From the IMG/VR virus record IMGVR_UViG_3300035670_000302, positions 1 through 51,294 of that record: a stretch of DNA of 51,294 bases. One strand, written 5' to 3'. Source of the DNA: a virus. The notes below the pieces were generated by a model. That model worked only from the letters and a program-made list of their open reading frames with translations. It was not told the origin of the DNA and did not search any database. Position numbers and translations under genes: made by a program. The stretch's first letter is position 1, and each line of letters starts with the position of its first letter. Shown here one piece after another: positions 167-2,434 of this stretch.

Positions 167-2434
167 CTATGTCCAACCTGCGGCGTGGACCCGCTTCACT
201 TCACGCTTGGCGGCAGTCACCGCCCCAACTGGGCTATCCACATGCAACATTAGGTACTGGAGTGCCTCGGCGACGTGCGAGTGCTTGTTCTTGTCGATCA
301 CGTTGTCCTGCTTCTGCTTGTAGCGATAACCCCCCATCATCGCGGCCTTGAGCCGCGTACACCGGGGGTCCACGACGAACGCCGGGTCGCCATCGACCTG
401 CCTCATAAGGTACTCGTCAACCGCGTTCACACGCGCAGAGATATTATTAGTCTTGGCAGGGATGACCCTGAGATTCTCAGCCTTGATGATGTCCACGGCA
501 CTGCGCTCGTCCGTCTGCGCCCTCTGCACCCCCGCCGGGTCGACCACGACGAGTATGGGAGACCCCGCGAACCGCTCATATAGTAGTGGCTTCAACTCCG
601 TCCGGATGAACCGCTGTATGCCCATGTCAAACGAGACCCTCTCGTCCAGTATCAGCACCCGCCCACGGGCGTCCTGCTGACCAATAATTGCCGCAGGTGT
701 CAACCCGAGGTCCATCCCCACGATGATGGGCCGAGCGCCGTTGGCGATGGGTCGTAGCGGGCCGGAGGCCATGTGGTAGTCCGGCCGGAAGTACTTGTAC
801 ACCGGCGTCCCCGCCAGCGACAGGCCGTACTCACCATCTATATAGACGCGGATGTACTCGTCACTGCGCCCTTGGATGTCGTAGTACCCCTCGGGCAGGT
901 TCTCTATGTTCTCGGCGTAGGCACTGCGCCCCGAGGGCTGTTTGTACACCGCCCACCCGTTGTTGTTAGGCGAGACGCCATCCTTGGGATCAAGCCCCTC
1001 CATTTGGAAGTACCACCAAGTGTCCATCGTGGGCGGGTTAGTGTCACCCCACATGCCAAACCACGTCGGCCCGCCATCCTTCGACGACGGATAACGACCA
1101 ATACGTTTTGACATGGCATCCACGATGTCCGGGTGGATGTCCCTGCACTCGTTGAACCACGCACCGGTCAACTCCAGCGAGTTGAGGTTAGCCACATCGT
1201 CCGCGTCGTCCAGTGCGCGGAACATAATCTCAGCCTCGACATCCCCGACCTTGAAGAAATAAGTCTTCGTCGTCCGCATGTACTCGCCACACTGCCCCGG
1301 CGGGAACCAATCCAGAAATGTCTTTATGGTGGTGTCCTGTAACTGGCGCACGGTCTCTCTGACCACCGCCCACCGCGACTTACGCACCCCTCGCGGGTTA
1401 GGGTTCTGCATACTCGCCCGACGAATCAACTCAAAACAACAAGTCACGCTCTTACCACTGTTGTGGTGGATAGTCCCGTCGGCAGTCACATAGTTGTTGG
1501 TATCGAGGACCTGCAAATCCCAATACGACCGCTTGCGCGCCTCCCGCTCAATTGATACTATGGGCCTGTCGGATACGGAGGTTAAGTAGAATGACTCATC
1601 ATAAATCTCAGAACACTCAGCGGATCGTGGCGCTTGCGGATGGCACTCTGTCCTCCACGCAGATCGCGCAGTCCGTTGGGCTGTCCCCTCGCTATGTGCG
1701 GAAAGTAATGCTCCGGCTGGACTTGCCCCGGCTAACAGAGGGTGCGCAACCGGGGAAACAAAACCACCAATACCAGTCAGGACGCCGGATAGACCAAGAC
1801 GGGTATGTGCTTGTAACCGCTCCCAAAGACCACCCGTACGCAAGACTTCGGACGCACCGGGATACCAAGTTGATGTTTGAGCATCGACTTGTTCTTGAAC
1901 AAACTCTAGGTCGATACCTTCTTCCTGAAGAAGTTGTAGACCATATCGACGGGCTGACGCTGCATAACGCGCCAGAGAACCTCCGGCTGTTCGCCTCGAA
2001 CGCCGATCATCTTTCTGCGACAAAAGCAGGCTGTGGGCCAAGGTTGTCAGCGGCTGGGAGCCGGAATACTGGGATACGGACTGACCTTGGGAAAGAGATC
2101 GAACGTGTCGATATGCACGCGACCCGTCGTAAACGAGGTGATGTTCGTTTGCGGCAAATTCTCCTTGCGGCGTTGTCACTCGGTATAGATAGTCCGTACC
2201 TTTCGGGAAGCTCCCCCCACACCAAGAAAGCTGGAATCGACATGACGTCTCGTTCCACGATAGAACGCGCATTGGCCGATCTATACGCGCGATGGGAAGC
2301 AGGCCATACTCAGTAACCACGAGGGTTTCGGGCGCTAAGCACCCTACAGGCCCCATGAGAACCCGCATTTTGCGGTTGTCCTGCATGAATTTCGCCCCTG
2401 TCGGGGGCGGCGTGTAGTCAATTGACAGCGACAT
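167..2434 (-). CDS. Large terminase (packaging ATPase/nuclease) interrupted by an intein
   Basis: DNA-packaging motor subunit: hydrolyses ATP to drive DNA into the prohead and cuts the concatemer. The 755-residue precursor has an N-extein of 31 residues, an intein at residues 32-325 and a C-extein of 430 residues. After splicing, GPVG joins SGKS to rebuild the P-loop GPVGSGKS. The ATPase part continues with a WFNE acidic motif. The C-terminal RNase H-like nuclease shows acidic residues at D575 (GMDLG) and D632 (VVVDP). The spliced length (about 461 aa) fits T7-like large terminases. The start overlaps the upstream 73-aa gene by 17 bp, with only a weak ribosome site, suggesting translational coupling. 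Without splicing the ATPase cannot work because its nucleotide loop is split. High confidence. Confidence 0.95.
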   Translation of the reverse strand: MSLSIDYTPPPTGAKFMQDNRKMRVLMGPVGCLAPETLVVTEYGLLPIARIDRPMRVLSWNETSCRFQLSWCGGSFPKGTDYLYRVTTPQGEFAANEHHLVYDGSRAYRHVRSLSQGQSVSQYSGSQPLTTLAHSLLLSQKDDRRSRRTAGGSLARYAASARRYGLQLLQEEGIDLEFVQEQVDAQTSTWYPGASEVLRTGGLWERLQAHTRLGLSGVLTGIGGFVSPVAHPLLAGASPAGALLSAHSEGTAQRTARSAWRTECHPQAPRSAECSEIYDESFYLTSVSDRPIVSIEREARKRSYWDLQVLDTNNYVTADGTIHHNSGKSVTCCFELIRRASMQNPNPRGVRKSRWAVVRETVRQLQDTTIKTFLDWFPPGQCGEYMRTTKTYFFKVGDVEAEIMFRALDDADDVANLNSLELTGAWFNECRDIHPDIVDAMSKRIGRYPSSKDGGPTWFGMWGDTNPPTMDTWWYFQMEGLDPKDGVSPNNNGWAVYKQPSGRSAYAENIENLPEGYYDIQGRSDEYIRVYIDGEYGLSLAGTPVYKYFRPDYHMASGPLRPIANGARPIIVGMDLGLTPAAIIGQQDARGRVLILDERVSFDMGIQRFIRTELKPLLYERFAGSPILVVVDPAGVQRAQTDERSAVDIIKAENLRVIPAKTNNISARVNAVDEYLMRQVDGDPAFVVDPRCTRLKAAMMGGYRYKQKQDNVIDKNKHSHVAEALQYLMLHVDSPVGAVTAAKREVKRVHAAGWT
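1460..2341 (-). other. Intein in the terminase Walker A loop (294 aa)
   Basis: Protein-splicing element in the terminase P-loop. It begins at Cys1 (codon 2341-2339), followed by LAPETLV, a typical block A. Block B lies near intein residues 60-70 (GEFAANEHHLVY). Block F is near DLQVLDTNNYVTADG, and block G ends IHHN (Asn codon 1462-1460) before Ser+1 of the C-extein. Cys1, the B-block His, the penultimate His, the terminal Asn and the Ser+1 nucleophile are all present, so splicing should be possible. The stretch between blocks B and F, about 165 residues, has no recognisable homing domain on this strand. It is rich in Ser, Ala, Gly and Arg, as expected of the complement of another gene. That gene, an HNH nuclease, lies on the plus strand. 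Confidence 0.93.
1591..2316 (+). CDS. HNH homing-type endonuclease encoded antisense inside the intein
   Basis: The 241-residue protein lies wholly within the intein but on the opposite strand. It starts with a helix-turn-helix (residues about 10-42, including IAQSVGLSPRYVRKVM). An HNH_3-type nuclease core follows: EHR at 97-99, DHIDG with H118, PENLRL with N130 and ADH with H140. About 100 less recognisable residues follow. Start choice: ATG 1591 has GGAGG at 1577-1581 with 9-nt spacing. An earlier in-frame ATG at 1552 lacks this and adds 13 unconvincing residues. In the usual arrangement the homing nuclease is fused in frame within the intein. Here it would be a separate protein made from the opposite strand. 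Its target is presumably the intein-free terminase P-loop; that is inferred. Confidence 0.9.
   Translation: MTHHKSQNTQRIVALADGTLSSTQIAQSVGLSPRYVRKVMLRLDLPRLTEGAQPGKQNHQYQSGRRIDQDGYVLVTAPKDHPYARLRTHRDTKLMFEHRLVLEQTLGRYLLPEEVVDHIDGLTLHNAPENLRLFASNADHLSATKAGCGPRLSAAGSRNTGIRTDLGKEIERVDMHATRRKRGDVRLRQILLAALSLGIDSPYLSGSSPHTKKAGIDMTSRSTIERALADLYARWEAGHTQ

Follow-up and report, generated by a model that had tools for sequence, protein, structure and literature searches.

The window analysed here is the whole 51,294-nt stretch of a virus record (IMG/VR IMGVR_UViG_3300035670_000302). An ORF on its minus strand (167–2434) encodes a 755-aa precursor of the large terminase subunit (TerL), which matched phrog_2 (terminase large subunit, E = 1e-21) and, weakly, Terminase_3 in profile searches. 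The precursor includes a 294-aa intein (1460–2341, minus strand; TerL residues C32 to N325) that splits the Walker A motif as GPVG^CLAPE...IHHN^SGKS. The 31-aa N-extein (2342–2434, minus strand) ends with the Walker A half GPVG and the C-extein (170–1459, minus strand) runs from SGKS on; in the empty allele L173, GPVGSGKS is contiguous. The insertion is in frame at a conserved residue, and the site is empty in 78 of the 80 nearest TerL homologues, the remaining two being copies of the window element. The splice residues, which are C1, the penultimate His and terminal Asn (HHN in the window) and S/T+1 (Ser here), are conserved across the family copies (the first residue of the L029 intein falls outside its contig).

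An AlphaFold2 model built with 24 homologues has a HINT fold, with pLDDT > 90 over most of intein residues 1–150 and 252–294. These include an N-terminal splicing domain (residues 1–95; 2057–2341, minus strand) and a C-terminal splicing domain (residues 252–294; 1460–1588, minus strand). Foldseek matched the model to the Ssp DnaB, Npu DnaB and Mtu RecA mini-inteins with a probability of 1.00 and TMt of ~0.8; the Pfam Intein_splicing match of the window lies under its cut-off. Residues 153–251 (1589–1885, minus strand) are predicted to be disordered, with pLDDT 24–39 in most blocks. We found no endonuclease family on the intein's own strand in Pfam or PHROGs profile searches, in agreement with the initial annotation, and an intein with an in-frame homing endonuclease domain is ruled out, disordered filler standing in its place. 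A group I or II intron is likewise ruled out, as a search of positions 1000–2800 against Rfam gave no hit with E up to 1. Intein residues 98–152 (~1886–2050, minus strand), antisense to the nuclease catalytic core described below, are modeled as confident helices, and stand where selection falls mostly on the nuclease frame.

On the opposite strand, wholly within the intein, lies a gene for a 241-aa HTH-HNH homing-type endonuclease (1591–2316, plus strand). This ORF had been proposed from the letters alone, and profile evidence now supports it: HNH_3 exceeds the Pfam cut-off at residues 98–134, HTH matches are weak (residues 13–44), and the protein is assigned to phrog_10730. The predicted structure (mean pLDDT 78) consists of an HTH region (residues 9–64; 1615–1782, plus strand) with helices at 7–15, 22–29 and 33–42, an HNH catalytic core (residues 96–150; 1876–2040, plus strand) and a helical C-terminus (residues 181–235; 2131–2295, plus strand). 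The suggested HNH residues H118, N130 and H140 are invariant, as is D117, across nuclease alignments down to 44% identity. The best fold match is I-HmuI, which is weak, and a PDB sequence search returned nothing useful. The protein thus combines an HNH motif with a DNA-binding domain, and it is encoded at its predicted target site, for which one close pair of phages provides an empty allele and a conversion-like tract.

The placement of the nuclease inside the intein held, whereas its confinement to the middle of the intein did not: over its 3′ third the gene shares base pairs with the N-terminal splicing domain, and its HTH region and the start of its core lie antisense to the disordered filler. 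The C-terminal domain of the nuclease (residues 170–241) had no match outside the family in Pfam, PHROGs or phage records. Because its antisense is the HINT splicing domain, this domain probably arose by overprinting. It is missing from a second clade of the family, possibly through loss.

Each antisense codon spans nuclease codon positions 2, 3 and the next 1, so that first positions face each other and position 2 faces position 3; this phase had been stated in the initial annotation and is confirmed by the codon layout. We counted no stop codon in the opposing intein frame of 72 clade-1 and 38 clade-2 distinct intact elements (110 in total), compared with 493 (clade 1) and 233 (clade 2) expected from a within-gene shuffle of synonymous codons. 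Several stops are usual in the other two antisense frames, and the intein frame holds none in any intact relative. In the core of 30 sequences, synonymous choices that would form a stop ahead of A-starting codons were never used (0 of 436, versus 41% elsewhere), nor did any of 61 phenylalanines precede an A-starting codon, where a stop is unavoidable. A chance antisense ORF is ruled out by these stop counts and codon tests. In L095 and L145, the opposing frame stops early, inside or just past the HNH region, which reflects decay or sequencing error.

Substitution rates by codon position are HNH-coding in the HTH and core (p3/p2 ~5.4), intein-coding in the non-overlapping C-intein (p3/p2 10.4) and slow at all positions in the N-intein overlap. 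Two-frame dN/dS gave 0.07–0.21 for the nuclease (dNN/dSN) and values mostly near 1 for the intein over the HTH and core, which bears out the expectation that substitutions favor HNH codon structure. Over the N-intein overlap, the nuclease gave 0.15–0.30 and the intein 0.25–0.41; the confidence limits of both frames are below 1 at the two larger divergence ranges, and that of the nuclease reaches 1.08 at the smallest. The pairs compared are non-independent and the correction is simple, and the pairwise values are therefore descriptive. Doubly synonymous sites are probably almost absent in this phase. Taken at the sequence level, these patterns point to selection that acts only on the nuclease in the HTH and catalytic core. 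Where the nuclease C-terminus overlaps the N-intein it acts on both frames, and beyond that on the intein alone.

Upstream of the nuclease, within C-intein codons, lies a predicted sigma-70-type promoter (TTGCGC-N17-TACTAT, 1533–1561, plus strand), for which the family has a consensus antisense in the C-intein (-35 TTGAC(A), N17, -10 TAnnAT) with a position conserved over 72 elements. The -10 ends mostly 26–32 nt upstream of the nuclease start, and 64% of elements have a promoter score of at least 9, compared with 2.6% of background windows. Valine codons overlapped by the -35 are GTC in 41 of 46 cases (28% in exteins), and it is therefore the promoter, not the protein, that dictates the codon. 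The GGAGG reported nine bases before the ATG at 1591 is present at 1577–1581 (plus strand). A ribosome-binding site precedes the nuclease start in 25 of 30 elements and only 20 of 659 other starts (3%), and in 60 of 72 elements of the larger set. Since the nuclease has its own predicted promoter and RBS, splicing and cutting would be uncoupled at the protein level, as had been suggested.

Between the -10 and the RBS sits a leader copy resembling the host Walker A half-site; in the window it is GGGCCTGTCGGA (1562–1573, plus strand) and reads GPVG. At codon positions 1 and 2, leader and half-site match at 8 of 8 bases in 31 of 45 GPVG loci, compared with 0.03% of shuffled leaders; by plain nucleotides the match is only moderate because wobble bases differ. 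Leaders are host-specific, reading GGFG (L070), AGYG (L086), GGAG (L039), GPIG (L071) and AGF (L083–L085, L091), and over ten host types the match of leaders to their own type beat 20,000 relabelings. The L087 leader is likewise among those with a copy of the host half-site. The Pectobacterium phages, L075, L076 and L081 depart from this pattern; in the second clade, the resemblance is weak and we do not claim it. Lying in a leader that spans the expected start of transcription, the copy suggests a candidate autoregulatory operator bound by the nuclease. It could also be what remains of an old inverted duplication, although its covariation with the host argues against this. Autorepression is known for I-TevI of the phage T4 td intron, where the leader of the homing nuclease holds an operator like the homing site. 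The two systems share a homing-site-like sequence in the nuclease leader; I-TevI is encoded by a sense-strand intron gene, whereas here the gene is antisense in an intein and the operator is a putative one. We tentatively propose, at somewhat less than even chances, that the nuclease binds the target copy at its own transcription start and represses itself, with an operator that coevolves with each host, and that its C-terminal domain was overprinted on the antisense of the N-intein, which would leave two folded domains, both under selection, on one set of base pairs.

Scanning for relatives first gave 33 loci; of two later scans of IMG/VR, which overlap, one confirmed 244 stretches and the other 279, and we examined the best 80 of 244 and the best 80 of 279. 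The element is also present in nine phage isolates (Pectobacterium, Dickeya and Pseudoalteromonas), in three contigs of prokaryote genomes, among them Enterobacter cloacae DSM 26481, and in E. coli MEI003, with the E. cloacae and E. coli copies in prophages. In the loci examined, the HNH gene is antisense, in the same phase and within a P-loop intein. Clade-1 nucleases start 125–149 bp from the intein end and usually stop 16–40 bp before C1, whereas those of clade 2 (L092, L093–L149) are shorter (median 200 aa) and end ~205 bp before C1. The host genes are terminases of several families, with single cases outside terminases: the P-loops of an AAA_24 ATPase (L164, 3099–4853, minus strand) and of a SNF2-like helicase (L168, 2502–5006, minus strand) carry antisense-HNH inteins. 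One terminase (L166, 1563–4853, minus strand) has an apparent second intein-like insertion (CLAAGTMV...ILVAN) beside its antisense-HNH intein. A free-standing distant relative of the nuclease (L041, 29% identity) has 12 stops in the corresponding antisense frame.

With the intein excluded, the window TerL and its closest empty allele, L173, share 96% identity in protein and 95% in DNA over 2118 bp. Relative to the insertion, positions -605 to -8 match without exception, and 20 mismatches are clustered in the 52 bp from -7 to +44. This tract is suggestive of what co-conversion during homing would leave, and the intein-free allele that carries it supports homing. The pair is the sole close intein-plus/minus pair found; further mismatch clusters lie away from the insertion, which means that these phages are mosaic and that one pair is suggestive and not proof. 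E. coli ET729 has an empty allele, and the MEI003/ET729 pair is too diverged to reveal a tract. Elements with nucleases 55–59% identical occur in terminases without detectable similarity to each other. In an intein-based search, the HNH residues, whose loss had been named as grounds for rejecting the nuclease, were retained in 77 of 79 inteins. Decayed copies include L320, with a nonsense codon in the HNH gene, L328, which lacks the nuclease N-terminus, and L304 and L319, in which HNH motif residues are altered. The TerL frame is open in all four, as would be expected if the spliced host protein is essential and the selfish nuclease dispensable.

We conclude that the Walker A loop of this phage terminase very probably holds a mobile intein with its homing endonuclease gene on the opposite strand. 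Architecture, conservation, per-frame selection, promoter and RBS, empty alleles and the conversion-like tract are read from the sequence; from them we infer splicing, cutting and active homing. TerL would be translated together with the intein, whose HINT domain (residues 1–95 and 252–294) would excise itself and rejoin GPVG and SGKS so that packaging works. The intein middle would be a mere antisense reading of the nuclease gene, held stop-free. The opposite-strand promoter and RBS in the C-intein codons would drive expression of the HTH-HNH nuclease, which would cut intein-free P-loop DNA, and repair would copy the entire element plus short flanks.

In GC-rich DNA, antisense frames can stay open over long distances. 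The HNH ORF could thus be spurious, kept open passively since GC-rich intein codons favor openness, with no nuclease made. We regard this as having almost no chance of being correct, and as already refuted by the sequence evidence: a passive ORF would not be expected to match HNH_3 and a PHROG, to keep catalytic residues invariant to such low identity, to evolve with HNH-type codon positions and the low dN/dS values given above, or to be preceded by a conserved promoter and RBS with a codon bias at the -35. It is also very improbable, if slightly less so, that the intein is dead and never splices, TerL being supplied otherwise and the locus being a decaying insertion. Such a reading could draw on RefSeq, which has the TerL of E. 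coli MEI003 as incomplete, its N-terminus missing and the HNH gene listed, and on the split annotation of Pseudoalteromonas phage PHS3, whose annotated TerL corresponds to the C-extein alone. Yet the MEI003 frame is open over 802 aa, as the TerL frame is across the intein in all intact copies; C1, HHN and S/T+1 are conserved, the N-intein and C-intein are under purifying selection, and cultured phages have the element at their TerL gene position. The terminase intein presumably splices, because isolated phages with a split Walker A exist.

HNH proteins aid terminases in packaging in some phages, as cited in PMC11855218, and TerL is the host gene in all examined examples but two. Both points would suit an HNH protein that is associated with packaging, as in some cos phages, and became nested in TerL by chance without any role in homing. 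We consider this as improbable as a dead intein, given that the gene also occurs in the AAA_24 ATPase and the SNF2-like helicase, that the element is absent from 78 of the 80 nearest TerL, and that a conversion-like tract at the insertion and a leader copy of the target accompany it.

In canonical inteins, the excised protein itself contains the endonuclease as an in-frame domain. The mobile intein proposed here differs in that the nuclease is a separate opposite-strand gene with its own predicted promoter. Like canonical endonuclease inteins, among them the TerL P-loop inteins of mycobacteriophages (PMC5050341), it has a HINT domain bounded by C1 and HN|S, a Walker A insertion, presence or absence between close relatives, and a linked homing-type nuclease. 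In phage ShiLan, a hidden HNH insertion in a methylase likewise places an HNH out of frame within an in-frame, stop-free insertion of a phage gene (PMC11855218). That HNH is on the same strand, without a splicing domain or a detectable RBS, and the insertion is thought to remain in the protein; with the opposite strand and a HINT domain here, an insertion of the ShiLan type is ruled out. Group I introns are also self-splicing elements that can carry an antisense homing endonuclease gene; for the Didymium intron L2066, the enzyme I-DsqI was shown to cut the intron-less allele (PMC9548176). Since they rely on RNA splicing in rDNA, such introns do not need an open opposing frame and have no dual coding. 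No intein with an antisense nuclease gene came up in the full-text literature searched, which covered few subscription papers; the element appears to be a mobile-intein variant undescribed in accessible literature, with priority uncertain.

The arrangement breaks the textbook tie of an intein to an in-frame nuclease and offers another hiding place for a homing gene. With ~165 bp encoding two conserved proteins on opposite strands, it is a clean model from nature in which to study two-strand coding and overprinting, and natural nuclease-loss copies serve as controls. Splicing, cutting and autoregulation are open to direct testing, since the element occurs in cultured phages of Pectobacterium and Pseudoalteromonas and in a prophage of E. 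coli. Of use to engineering, it suggests that a HINT domain can accommodate a poorly constrained insert of ~100 aa. The element also accounts for terminases annotated as truncated or as pseudogenes, including that of E. coli in RefSeq: at L334 (2284–3588) and L039 (1691–2866), public annotation favors the antisense HNH ORF and so cuts TerL short or labels it a pseudogene.
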